A program made the position numbers and the translations under genes. Shown here one piece after another: positions 9,969 through 63,712 of a stretch of 64,000 bases of DNA. The first letter of the stretch is position 1. The number at the start of each line of letters is the position of its first letter. The notes beneath the pieces are model-generated. The model worked only from the letters and a program-made list of their open reading frames with translations, searched no databases and was not told the DNA's origin. This DNA is from Sulfurimonas sediminis (GTDB lineage Bacteria; Campylobacterota; Campylobacteria; Campylobacterales; Sulfurimonadaceae). The DNA lies in contig NZ_CP041235.1 in assembly GCF_014905115.1 (NCBI RefSeq), positions 2,232,001 to 2,296,000 on the forward strand, in the 5' to 3' direction.

Positions 9969-10949
9969 TTAGATAGGCAATACTCTTATTTTTTGTGAAA
10001 GTTTTTCTTTAAGTGTTGATTCAATTGCGTAAAGTGTCCCTGTAGCAGATGAGGCACAGCCATCACATGCACCAAGATAACGGATATAAATATCAATGTT
10101 GTCATCATTCTTTTTAATGTCTATAATTTCTACATTGCCGCCATCCATAATCAAGAACTGTCTTACGCTCTCATCAATGACAGCATCAACAGCTTTTATC
10201 TGCTGCACAAGTGTCATCTCTTCAAAATTTCCGCCACCGGCACTCATCGCATCCGCGGCTGCTTTCATTTTTTCTGCTTCCATCTCTTTACGAGTCTGCT
10301 CCAAAATGTCAACCAGATACCATTCTCTGTCTTCATGACCGCCCGGTTTGATACAAGATTTACAAAAACCGCCGGCTTTTGTATAATCTGTAATCTCTTC
10401 TACCGTTTTCAAGTCATTCAGCTTGATGACTTCCTGAATTGTTCCAAGTGAAACACGTGCACATTCACATACAATGATTTCATCTTCAAAACTCTCTTCA
10501 TCAACACCAAGGTATAATGAAGCCGCTTTTTTGATAACATCATATGCCATTACCGAACAGTGCATTTTTTGCGGTGGAACAGCCGGAGTATCCGGATCAT
10601 CACGCAGTGCTTTTTCCACATCAATATTTGTAATTTTTACCGCTTCTTGTACCGTTTTGCCGATACAAAGTTCTGTCATAACATCACTTGAAGCGATAGC
10701 AGTACCACATCCGAATGATTTAAATTTAGAGTTTACAATTTTGTCTGTTTTTGGATCAATTTCCCAGTAAAGTCTTACTGCATCTCCACAACTCTCCGCT
10801 CCAAAATCTGCAACGATGAGCTTGTTTCCGTGCGCTTCAGCTTCTTCTGGTGTAATTTCCCCTTGATGCTGGGGATTGTTCATTAATGTAGTTACTTTAT
10901 TTGAATACGCGTCCCATAGAGACTCGCCTAACATATCTGCTTTTGCCAT
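9969..10949 (-). CDS. nifU: NifU-type Fe-S cluster scaffold protein
   Basis: A 326-residue three-domain scaffold that assembles and hands over Fe-S clusters using sulfur from NifS. Residues ~1-130 are IscU-like, with cysteines in AESCGDAV, SFGCGTAIASSD and KMHCSVMA. Residues ~155-215 are a BFD-like [2Fe-2S] domain (CECARVSLG...CKSC). Residues ~245-326 are a NifU C-terminal domain with GACDGCASS. In Campylobacterota this pair is the housekeeping assembly system, and no nitrogenase genes are present here. AAGGAAAG precedes the ATG. It lies downstream of nifS, separated by 254 bp of structured, repeat-rich DNA. Confidence 0.95.
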   Translation of the reverse strand: MAKADMLGESLWDAYSNKVTTLMNNPQHQGEITPEEAEAHGNKLIVADFGAESCGDAVRLYWEIDPKTDKIVNSKFKSFGCGTAIASSDVMTELCIGKTVQEAVKITNIDVEKALRDDPDTPAVPPQKMHCSVMAYDVIKKAASLYLGVDEESFEDEIIVCECARVSLGTIQEVIKLNDLKTVEEITDYTKAGGFCKSCIKPGGHEDREWYLVDILEQTRKEMEAEKMKAAADAMSAGGGNFEEMTLVQQIKAVDAVIDESVRQFLIMDGGNVEIIDIKKNDDNIDIYIRYLGACDGCASSATGTLYAIESTLKEKLSQKIRVLPI

Positions 10950-10981
10950 ACTTTCTTTCCTTTTTTTTATTTCATAAAAAT

Positions 10982-11004
10982 AAGGGAACCTTTTTTATTC
11001 CCTT
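10982..11004. repeat. Hairpin between nifS and nifU (possible terminator or processing site)
   Basis: AAGGGAA (10982-10988) and TTCCCTT (10998-11004) form a 7-bp stem with a 9-nt loop. On the plus strand it is followed by T residues; on the minus (nif) strand it is followed by ATTTTTA. It lies just before nifU and could attenuate or process the nifS-nifU message. The structure is seen; the role is inferred. Confidence 0.4.
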
Positions 11005-11029
11005 TTTGTCACGCCAAAGGGAGTAATCC

Positions 11030-11100
11030 CTCTGGCTACGCTAACGCTTGGTTTCACCCTAGAGGGCACTTACGTCCTCAGCGCAAGGCTCGCGCAACTC
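11030..11100. repeat. Dispersed repeat R2, copy 1
   Basis: Contains a 20-nt stretch (11036-11055, starting CTACGCTAACG and ending GGTTTC) that recurs exactly at 58550-58569 beside the 16S gene, plus CTCAGCGC[A/G]AGGCTCG (from 11077) that recurs at 58571. Copy 1 carries about 21 extra bases between these two blocks. It has no ORF and is more G+C-rich than its surroundings. Confidence 0.6.
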
Positions 11101-11114
11101 GTTGCTTTACCATA

Positions 11115-11189
11115 ATGTTTTTCTCTGTAAAATGGAGAGGCTCAGACCGTAGGGAGGATTCGCCCTCGGAATTTTATAGAGAAAAACAT
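11115..11189. repeat. Structured element R1, copy 1 (hairpin with conserved loop)
   Basis: The arms 11115-11133 and 11171-11189 are complementary at 18 of 19 positions. The enclosed segment holds GAGG + CTCAGACC + 3 nt + GGGAGGATTCGC + CCTC, where GAGG and CCTC can pair. A second copy at 46450-46526 has a different outer stem and an inner GAGA/TCTC pair around nearly the same loop. This looks like a conserved structured RNA or DNA element. It lies within the nifS-nifU spacer. No known family is recognised. Confidence 0.6.
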
Positions 11190-11203: not shown

Positions 11204-12454
<1,251 letters not shown>

Positions 12455-44602: not shown

Positions 44603-45064
44603 TTAATTTTTGCATAAATTTGGTTTGAAATTTAAAATAAGCAGCCATAAAACGGCAAAATCTATCATCACATCTGCAAAATTGAAAACAGCAAAATTAA
44701 ATCCACAGTGCCAATAGACCATATCTACAACACCCTCATGAACAAATCTGTCATAAATATTGGAAAATGCCCCTCCAAGAAGTATTCCTGCGGGTAAAGC
44801 GTAACATAGCTTTTTGAGGTATAGTACATATGCCAAAACACCACTTACAAGCAAAAGCTGAATATACTTTAAATACTCGTTCAAAAATGCAAACATTGAA
44901 AATGCAACACCCTTGTTGTAAACAAGTATCAGATCTATACACTCAGTATAGTAACGAAAGCCCTCAACAAAGAGACTTTTAATATTTTGATCGATGATAA
45001 ATACACCTGCGAGACTAAAGAGCAATATCGCTGAGAGGCGTAACATTTTATTACTGTTATTCAT
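44603..45064 (-). CDS. lspA: Lipoprotein signal peptidase
   Basis: A 153-residue four-helix membrane protease that cuts signal peptides from lipoproteins after lipidation. Signature regions are [34 protein letters not shown] (first catalytic Asp) and FNFADVMID (second catalytic Asp). It overlaps glmM by 8 nt, the same glmM-lspA pairing known in Campylobacter. Lipoproteins in this window (22184, 32325, SoxD) would be among its substrates. Confidence 0.95.
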
Positions 45065-46397
45065 TGAGCACTTTTTTAAAAAATTCTACTATTTCATTCA
45101 TTTTTTCATTCATGATATCAGCCTCTTTACATTCCAAAAGAACCCGCAGTTTATTTTCTGTCCCTGAATAGCGAATCAAATGCCGTATTCCTTTCGCTTC
45201 TAAAGCAAGCAACTTTTCATCCAAAGAAGCTATTTCGCTTAAAGGCTTTTTTTTCTTTACATGTAAGTTCACAAGTTTTTGCGGATATAAAGGGAATGGC
45301 CGTAAAAGCTCTGAAGCTTTTTTATTTTTATCAATCAATAAAGCAAGCACCTGAAGTGTTGCTACAAGTCCGTCTCCGGTTTTTGCGAAATCACTAAATA
45401 TAATATGTCCGCTTTGTTCCCCGCCAAAGTTAATTCCCTGCTTTTTCATAATTTCCAAAACATGTTTGTCTCCGACATCTGATCGAAAAAGTTTCAAACC
45501 ATTTTCTGACATGTAATCTTCAAGCCCCTGATTACTCATAACGGTAGTTACTACTCCTCCACCTTTAAGCTTGTTTTGCTCATGGAGGTAAACGCCAAGT
45601 GCTCCCAGAAGATGGTCACCATCTACTGCTTCTCCTGTTTCATCTACGACCACAAGCCTGTCAGCATCACCGTCAAGCGCTATTCCCAGATCAGCTCTAT
45701 ATCTAACAACACTCTTGCATAAATCTTTTGTATGCAAAGCACCACAGTCTTCGTTAATGTTAAAACCGTTTGGTTTGTCATGCAGTACTATTACCTCAGC
45801 ACCAAGTTCTTCCAAAACAGTCGGGCCTACTTTATAAGCTGCACCGTTTGCCGTGTCAAGCACTATACGCATTCCCTGCAATGTCATATGCACAGGAAAA
45901 GAGTTCTTCAGTTGTACTATATATCGTCCTATGACATCATCAATACGCTTTGCCTTGCCTATTGCTTTTCCCGTGACTTGTGACTTGTTTATAAGCTTTT
46001 CGTTAAAATAGATGTTTTCTATCTCTATTTCTGTCTCACATGAAAATTTATCTCCGTGTGCGTTAAAAAACTTAATCCCGTTATCTTCAAAAGAGTTGTG
46101 TGAAGCCGAAATCATAATCCCGGCATCACAGCGCATATTTTCTGTAATGTATGCTATGGCCGGTGTAGGCATAGGACCAACCTGAATGACATCATACCCA
46201 ATAGCCGTCAATCCGCTCACAATAGCATTCTCTATCATGTAGCCGCTTCTGCGTGTATCTTTTCCTACAAGTATTTTATTGGTCACTGCCGATGATTTCA
46301 AATAAATCCCCGCAGCCATAGCCACTTTCATAGCAACCGAAGCGCTTAAAAAAGAACCTGCCTCACCTCTTACGCCGTCTGTACCAAATAGTTTCAT
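45057..46397 (-). CDS. glmM: Phosphoglucosamine mutase
   Basis: A 446-residue enzyme converting glucosamine-6-phosphate to glucosamine-1-phosphate for peptidoglycan and LPS. The start [14 protein letters not shown], the phosphoserine loop [16 protein letters not shown], the metal loop DGDADRLVV and the [10 protein letters not shown] sugar loop are all present, and the late [12 protein letters not shown] phosphate-binding loop is intact. It is divergent from rpsT, with the R1 element in the gap. Confidence 0.97.
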
Positions 46398-46449
46398 ATA
46401 CTATATTTCCTCTGCTTTTCTCACAAAATATTATAATTTCAGGGCTGTA

Positions 46450-46526
46450 GTTTACATAAAGAGATGAAGGAAGAGACTCAGACCAACGGGAGGATTTGCT
46501 CTCTTCTTTTAGCTCTTTATGTAAAC
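46450..46526. repeat. Structured element R1, copy 2 (hairpin with conserved loop)
   Basis: Arms GTTTACATAAAGAG (46450-46463) and CTCTTTATGTAAAC (46513-46526) pair perfectly over 14 bp. Inside, GAAGAGA and TCTCTTC form a second 7-bp stem around CTCAGACC + 3 nt + GGGAGGATTTGC. The loop nearly matches copy 1 at 11115-11189, while both stems differ in sequence but keep pairing. It lies between glmM and rpsT, upstream of both. Confidence 0.6.
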
Positions 46527-46623
46527 GGTAACCAAGACTTTGTGCATTTTACCACCCTTTAACTTAATTTTAATTATTTTTAAGGTAATATTTCGCACTT
46601 AAATTCCAAAAAGGACTCATTAA

Positions 46624-46884
46624 ATGGCAAATCACAAGTCATCAATTAAGAGAATTCGCCAGACACTCGTTCGTACTGAACGTAATCGTTTCTACAGAAC
46701 TCGTCTTAAAAATATCGTAAAAGCAGTTAGTTCAGCAGTTGAAGCTGGTAACAAAGAAGAAGCACAGGCAGCATTTAAAGTTGCAAACCAGCAAATTCAC
46801 AAATTTGTAAGCAAAGGTATCTTAAAAAAAGAGACTGCTGCAAGAAAAGTAAGCCGTCTACACAAATCTGTAAACGCAATATAA
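46624..46884 (+). CDS. rpsT: 30S ribosomal protein S20
   Basis: An 86-residue basic ribosomal protein that binds 16S r[17 protein letters not shown] and the helical Lys/Arg/Ala-rich pattern ending [13 protein letters not shown] are typical. AAAGGA lies before the ATG. It is followed 12 nt later by prfA, an arrangement shared with Campylobacter. Confidence 0.97.
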
Positions 46885-51220: not shown

Positions 51221-51298
51221 CTTTCCTCGGAATCGGTACTTCAGTGCCGACTCATGCAACTTTTTCCAGCCCGTACTGAAGTACAGATTCTGAGAAGC
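51221..51298. repeat. Long imperfect hairpin after purM
   Basis: Segments 51221-51245 and 51275-51298 are complementary over about 24 positions with roughly five mismatches; the inner GTACTTCAGT/ACTGAAGTAC is perfect. The loop is 29 nt. No T-run follows on the plus strand, so it is not a standard terminator. It could be a remnant of a mobile element or a structured RNA. Confidence 0.5.
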
Positions 51299-63528: not shown

Positions 63529-63712
63529 TTAGACTTCTTGCAAAACCCAGATATACCTCAGAGGGTAAACAAGTAGTAACCTAGCACAAAAAGAAGAGCT
63601 TTACTCTGCGTTAGATAACCCCAACCGTAGCTACAGCTACGCTTGAGAACATCTGCCTTGATTAAAACTCTTCTTTTTGTGCTGAGGCATATCTGGGTTT
63701 TGCAAGAAGTCT
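63529..63712. mobile_element. MITE-like palindromic element
   Basis: The 32-nt terminal arms (63529-63560 and 63681-63712) are complementary at 31 of 32 positions, starting TAGACTTCTTGCAAAACC. A second perfect 16-bp inverted repeat (63582-63597 and 63667-63682) and a central stem CGTAGC/GCTACG (63625-63640) lie inside, so the whole 184 bp can fold as one hairpin. The ends are flanked by ATT on both sides, or share TA, suggesting a 2-3 bp target duplication. No transposase is encoded. It lies between divergent znuA and secG. Confidence 0.8.

Follow-up and report, generated by a model that had tools for sequence, protein, structure and literature searches.

REPs are short intergenic hairpins (PMC8266576), and integron attC sites are imperfect hairpins with variable stems and a strand preference, in which the folded strand rather than the sequence is recognised (PMC6393395). 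In REP/REPIN (BIME) systems, a 5' tetranucleotide GTAG accompanies conserved palindromes, and carriers have the Y1 transposase TnpA_REP (RAYT). MITEs and other palindromic small mobile elements are also non-coding, short, multi-copy and intergenic. Sheared first-third pairs are known for both DNA and RNA hairpin loops; in extra-stable d(GNA) mini-hairpins, in the promoters of the phage N4 virion RNA polymerase and in Frpo of the F plasmid, a C-G-closed triloop with such a pair lies on a defined DNA strand near gene starts.

Here we describe a family of ~75-base intergenic hairpins in Sulfurimonas and other Campylobacterota that is new as far as the literature was searched, a scope that one important candidate-RNA survey lies outside. 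Like REPs, these hairpins are intergenic and multi-copy, fold specifically as one single strand, occur in inverted doublets and are sporadically distributed, but they combine a constant tip with free arms, GTAG is rare, and Y1 transposase is missing from the richest Sulfurimonas genomes. They resemble attC sites as imperfect, variable-stem hairpins with a strand preference, and the d(GNA), N4 and Frpo hairpins in their C-G-closed, sheared-pair triloop on a defined strand near gene starts. The N4 and Frpo hairpin promoters, however, belong to phage or conjugative DNA, whereas the present element lies at chromosomal housekeeping genes, has no conserved flanking promoter elements and, in either tip class, was not found in viral contigs. 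In contrast to MITEs, it has no clear target-site duplication and no arm sequence shared across most copies, and it is compensated at orthologous loci.

Results

Two hairpins in a 64-kb window of the Sulfurimonas sediminis chromosome

The window, by which we mean the whole 64-kb stretch of DNA analysed (positions 2232001-2296000 of a chromosome of 2.32 Mb whose first gene is dnaA), contains two copies of the hairpin. Copy 1, proposed at 11115-11189 in the initial annotation, is real: a de-novo palindrome scan of the 64 kb recovered 11115-11189 as the fourth-ranking palindrome, and a covariance model matched 11117-11187 with 73.2 bits. Its 5' arm (11117-11140, + strand) pairs with 11164-11187 in a stem of 24 bp or more and holds the GGA of a GGA/GGA internal loop. 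The conserved tip CTCAGA-CC-GTA-GG-GAGGATTCG (11141-11162, +), an exact pattern match that is kept in 195 elements, comprises a two-base-pair inner stem and a GNA-type triloop, and is followed by an unpaired Y (11163) and the 3' arm (11164-11187; together 11163-11187, +).

Copy 2 is the strongest palindrome of the window and matches the model at 46453-46523 with 72.3 bits. It consists of a 5' arm (46453-46476, +), the exactly matching tip CTCAGA-CC-AAC-GG-GAGGATTTG with an ANC-type triloop (46477-46498, +), and an unpaired Y (46499) with the 3' arm (46500-46523; together 46499-46523, +). The stem continues outward to 46443/46533, with a foot TAG at 46448-46450 and a foot CGG at 46526-46528. 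The near-identical core first reported for this distant copy is indeed present in both hairpins, although it starts at 46477 rather than at 46481. The inner stems read GAGG/CCTC in copy 1 and GAGA/TCTC in copy 2, just as had been described, and the outer stems are unrelated in sequence yet pair in both copies (+ strand fold z of -4.45 and -6.43, respectively). The core CTCAGACC-N3-GGGAGGATTYG, also written CTCAGACC-N3-GGGAGGATTYGC, occurs as an exact pattern twice in the window, both times in these hairpins, and not once in 100 dinucleotide shuffles; the covariance model likewise matched copies 1 and 2 only.

Copy 1 was correctly placed in the nifS-nifU spacer. Upstream of it lies nifS, encoding a NifS family cysteine desulfurase (11204-12427, -; TIGR03403 nifS_epsilon, 737 bits, above cut-off), and downstream a nifU-like Fe-S scaffold gene that is antisense to the folded strand (9969-10949, -; TIGR02000 NifU, E=1.4e-66, below the curated cut-off). 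Copy 2 is flanked by glmM, whose start is the nearest to the 5' foot (45057-46397, -; TIGR01455 glmM, 512 bits), and by the divergent rpsT, for ribosomal protein S20 (46624-46884, +; TIGR00029 S20).

Other features of the window are recorded here for completeness. The remainder of the nifU-nifS spacer (10975-11110) is GC-richer and repeat-like; it is missing in G053 and differs even in the close relative G117. A hairpin at 51226-51294 (GGTACTTCAGTGC..GTACTGAAGTAC) resembles GCCGGCACTTCAGTGCCGGC of the element-free queD-queE spacer of G117 (L224) and possibly belongs to a separate repeat family. Close to the window end, at 63582-63684, a 25-bp stem with a 53-nt loop is unrelated to the constant-tip hairpins.

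A constant tip on free but covarying arms

Across the 195 distinct elements that we extracted, the tip is nearly invariant, while its inner pairs vary as C-G, G-C, T-A and A-T. The triloop follows a simple rule: a first base G is accompanied by a third base A in 85 of 86 elements, and a first base A by A or C in 105 of 107, the listed triloops being GNA, ANA and ANC, with no GNC. These combinations are the ones that can form sheared first-third pairs, and isosteric sheared pairs would give exactly this pattern. In many copies a purine-rich internal loop interrupts the stem four pairs below the tip; in copy 1, GGA faces GGA there. Stem length ranges from 19 to 48 bp with a mode of 28-30, so we rejected a fixed arm length acting as a molecular ruler; an outer second stem past the feet was not above control, a short tail excepted.

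A second tip class, CTCGTGA-N-xy-AAG-z-GAGGATTTG (CTCGTGAN-xy-AAG-z-GAGGATTTG), has the same kind of stems, and its positions y and z tend to pair. Its loci (L315, L317, L319, L322, L323, L325, L330, L331 and L333) lie mostly in genomes that also have class 1; among the matches found, one genome, G149, has the second class only. Class-2-like matches TGATAAAAGGGAGGATTTG were discarded, as they look like ribosome-binding sites after stop codons rather than elements.

Some copies are arranged unusually. Inverted doublets 70-350 bp apart were seen at L063 (G091, 688833-/688940+), L077 (G079, 429409-/429493+), L317 (G177, 971396-/971468+), L038 (G154), L179 and L211, and the G177 doublet joins a class-2 and a class-1 element that directly abut. 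At L420 (G567:C227), a class-1 copy is split by ~40 nt right after the tip, with both arms still flanking.

In 63 dissimilar copies, 26 of the 29 pairs showed double compensatory changes, with a covariation score of 0.828 versus 0.176 after shuffling and at most 0.23 for all slid controls. Because these copies had been picked for pairing, we repeated the pairing test on 183 sites chosen by core sequence alone. Of these, 163 paired at no fewer than 14 of the 16 outer positions of the stem, versus 4 of 3000 random places. The arms change together and keep pairing, which points to selection on the folded strand. Selection on structure, whether of a structured RNA or of a protein-bound DNA hairpin, had been suggested at the outset and is supported by these data: further copies exist, their stems are paired, and the pairing holds where sites are chosen by core.

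The family is spread sporadically through the Campylobacterota

The S. sediminis genome has five copies, all on the + strand and within 2.02-2.32 Mb; they occupy the nifU-nifS, glmM-rpsT, queD-queE, formate dehydrogenase-SDR and ppnP-ruvC spacers (names partly from sequence reading). A covariance-model search, as proposed in the initial annotation, had a match in 32 of 100 genomes of the genus. Carrier relatives have 1-41 copies each, and nearly all carriers are Campylobacterota. When 200 genomes of the family were searched with the core pattern, multi-copy genomes were nearly confined to the same genus (G091 with 17 copies, G001 with 12, G079 with 10, G177 and G053 with 8 each), and many others had none; the reversed-pattern control gave occasional single matches only. 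Among 397 good genomes of the phylum, carriers, multi-copy ones included, are spread sporadically over several families, and there are same-genus relatives without the element. One genus outside the family is rich in copies, with up to 41 in G567. The exact core had at least 120 matches among 84,980 GTDB species; among those listed, 117 of 120 contigs are from Campylobacterota, and the three matches from elsewhere have no stem. Plasmids that we searched gave matches at chance level only.

None of the known families or machineries that we considered, namely an Rfam family, integron attC boxes, a Y1/REP transposase or a reverse transcriptase, explains the hairpins. The Rfam 15 covariance models had no match at gathering score at either window copy and, at a lax threshold (E<=5), nothing credible at any of the five genome copies. 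The attC simple sites RYYYAAC and GTTRRRY stood at element ends in 2 and 3 of 194 copies, which is chance level, and never together, and no integron cassette arrays were seen at the copies examined. The Y1 transposase domain (PF01797, E<=0.001) had no match in G001, G079, G091, G145 and G154 and is present in some other carriers. Reverse transcriptase (PF00078), which a retroelement or group II intron product would require, is missing from G001, G079, G091, G567, G507 and G428. As the richest Sulfurimonas genomes have neither enzyme, we rejected both as trans factors, and REP/RAYT and retro-type machinery is not needed for the element. We found no DNA-binding or recombining protein for the hairpin.

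Copies lie beside gene starts, mostly antisense

Sulfurimonas copies adjoin the upstream stop codon and lie ~17-60 nt before the next start codon. At co-directional sites the folded strand is antisense to the genes in 53 cases and sense in 8. A first tally counted 44 divergent versus 7 convergent spacers, and in long divergent spacers the element stands beside the antisense start in 9 of 12 (p=0.0008). In G567, sense and antisense placement are about equally frequent, again near the start codon, with mostly 47-64 nt from core end to sense start. The neighbours are unrelated housekeeping genes, no other gene recurs beside the copies, and a regulon of one pathway is therefore ruled out. In six complete genomes the folded strand lies on lagging-strand sequence in 44 of 54 copies. 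However, at the three lagging-strand operon sites the element is still antisense to the genes; gene orientation thus explains the data equally well or better, and we rejected replication strand as the driver of orientation.

Vertical inheritance, loss and inversion of the core

Copies are inherited vertically at the same spacers and evolve compensatorily; they are often lost, in some cases with a stump left behind, and the core can be inverted between the arms. About ten species have the element at one position and orientation between queD and queE, where other species have spacers of 0-25 nt; G000, G177 and G193 have stems that are clearly related yet compensated, and presence and absence at this site imply at least 8 changes on a 30-taxon tree. 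In the nifS-nifU spacer, G053 has the same arms as G000 and G117 with the core in the opposite orientation, and at bioV-mogA the core is inverted in G177.

At some element sites, relatives of G567 have a short hairpin, TTGAACTA-AAA-TAGTTCAA, consistent with deletion of the tip, and loss by tip deletion is therefore likely. At two loci orthologous to L386 (L444, G568:C47; L445, G572:C6), a different long hairpin, with stem GCACCTCT..AACCCTATA and a core of approximately ACTGATAGAAACCT, stands where G567 has a class-1 element, and its core is inverted between the two species. We found no clear insertion junction: element-free sites in G567 relatives have mostly no or a short hairpin, and direct repeats at element ends are in slight excess at 7-8 nt only (7 versus 1.8). 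The short hairpins may be deletion remnants and thus do not demonstrate new insertion. The idea that arms are fresh copies of the target flank is unsupported in Sulfurimonas, where orthologous stems are related.

The strand carrying CTCAGACC is the one that folds

Under a scoring that favours neither strand, stems read on the CTCAGACC strand have 144 G.T versus 32 A.C mismatches (p=4e-18) and 46 G.A versus 12 C.T. The ratio of G.T to A.C is 75:11 for copies antisense to both flanking genes, 30:10 between divergent genes and 16:6 for sense copies. Because G.T outnumbers A.C, antisense copies included, we conclude that it is the CTCAGACC-carrying strand that folds. If the hairpin acted in mRNA, the bias would be expected to flip in antisense copies, and no such flip is seen. 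Neither -10-like boxes 5' of the element (96 of 190, versus 85.8 shuffled) nor T5 tracts 3' of it (32 of 195, versus 26.7 expected) are enriched, and a conserved signal in the flank near position -50 is explained most simply as the Shine-Dalgarno sequence of the antisense gene. Taken together, the strand-specific mismatch bias, the antisense orientation and the lack of promoter and terminator signals speak for a DNA hairpin, as the better reading, rather than for a leader RNA.

Discussion

We infer, tentatively, that the hairpins are a non-coding interspersed element family that acts as DNA, has been mobile, and has its constant tip read by a putative trans-acting factor. The CTCAGACC strand would fold on itself when single-stranded, negatively supercoiled or extruded as a cruciform, giving a stem of 24-30 bp with, in many copies, a purine-rich internal loop of the sheared G.A type four pairs below the tip. 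The tip itself would be built from a CTC/GAG helix, a stem of two pairs and a single-base loop, which a sheared pair (G.A, A.A or A.C) closes. The putative factor would read this tip, leaving the arms free in sequence provided they pair. Copies would have dispersed in the past; they now stand in intergenic sites beside ribosome-binding sites and are vertically inherited, and they would be kept by selection at the level of structure and lost on tip deletion or when the factor disappears.

A dedicated structured RNA is possible but on balance unlikely. Here a promoter of its own, or an antisense promoter, would drive transcription of the CTCAGACC strand into a protein-binding small RNA, and the copies would form a paralogous sRNA family. 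Every fold statistic fits RNA as well as DNA on that strand, the tandem G.A internal loop and triloop resemble a protein-binding RNA motif, and antisense transcription is common in related Epsilonproteobacteria. However, the hairpins have no Rfam match, no promoter is enriched upstream and no terminator lies downstream, most copies are in short operon spacers where this strand is antisense, and the arms share no sequence, unlike those of typical sRNA families. An RNA reading of the opposite strand is conceivable too, because a GNA loop has as its complement C(UNCG)G, which is known as a stable tetraloop in RNA.

We regard it as rather unlikely that the hairpins are non-functional palindromes in which replication template-switching copies arm onto arm and the tip is conserved only since the copies are fairly young. 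Quasi-palindrome correction is an established mutational process, and it fits G567, where copies at separate loci have the inner arm in common and the differences between them are paired changes only, with no intermediates. Stems there are 27-48 bp long with locus-specific outer parts, 684 of ~714 pairs (96%) are Watson-Crick, and the residual mismatches (15 G.T, 11 A.C) have no strand bias; many genomes, moreover, have lost every copy. Given this unbiased and nearly perfect pairing, mutational palindrome correction may contribute, and template-switch correction rather than selection could explain part of the perfect pairing, chiefly in G567. It does not fit the older Sulfurimonas copies, with their strand-specific G.T excess and invariant tip. 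At orthologous queD-queE loci the tip stays the same despite widely diverged stems, the covariation of the inner stem (C-G, G-C, T-A) and the loop rule both lie within the tip, and the changes between close relatives (L026/L062) include G.T and one-sided ones, which is what selection acting on point mutations would produce.

The position of copies 17-60 nt before a start codon, often right after the upstream stop codon, and the 47-64 nt between core end and sense start in most G567 cases would suit a cis-acting leader or spacer element whose site of action is the mRNA immediately 5' of the ribosome-binding site. We consider this improbable, as the mRNA of the antisense copies would carry the A.C partners of the preferred G.T (75:11), the opposite of what selection on RNA would produce; in addition, both orientations occur, even at the same locus, and the target genes are functionally unrelated. 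A REP-like or IS200/IS605-like single-stranded DNA transposition substrate, mobilised by a Y1 (HUH) transposase, is disfavoured and very improbable: the hairpins are intergenic and of the ssDNA type, TAG is at the 5' foot in 32 of 81 Sulfurimonas copies, and G091 and G079 have inverted doublets, but there is no Y1_Tnp match in G001 (12 copies), G079 (10) or G091 (17), GTAG is at the foot in only 24 of 194 copies versus 10.9 expected from shuffles, and the tip is constant while the arms are free.

The reading of the family as a DNA hairpin has a bolder form, which we hold to be unlikely, in which the host maintains a strand-specific DNA-structure code: a constant sheared-pair tip on compensating arms, read by a dedicated protein near gene starts when single-stranded or extruded. 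If true, selection would here maintain a class of secondary-structure element made of DNA (not RNA), with two or more tip classes. What is usually kept in bacterial elements is either sequence, as in binding sites and REPs, or RNA structure, as in riboswitches and sRNAs. In the present family, hundreds of copies keep the tip and the ability to pair while the arms drift, and the mismatch statistics name the relevant DNA strand. If a protein reads the hairpin in DNA, the family would be a clear example from nature of DNA secondary structure under selection beyond integrons, REPs and phage or plasmid origins; if mutational palindrome repair is at work, it would document that process on a large natural scale. 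In both cases, the orthologous sites with present, absent, inverted and deleted forms are a directly testable data set.
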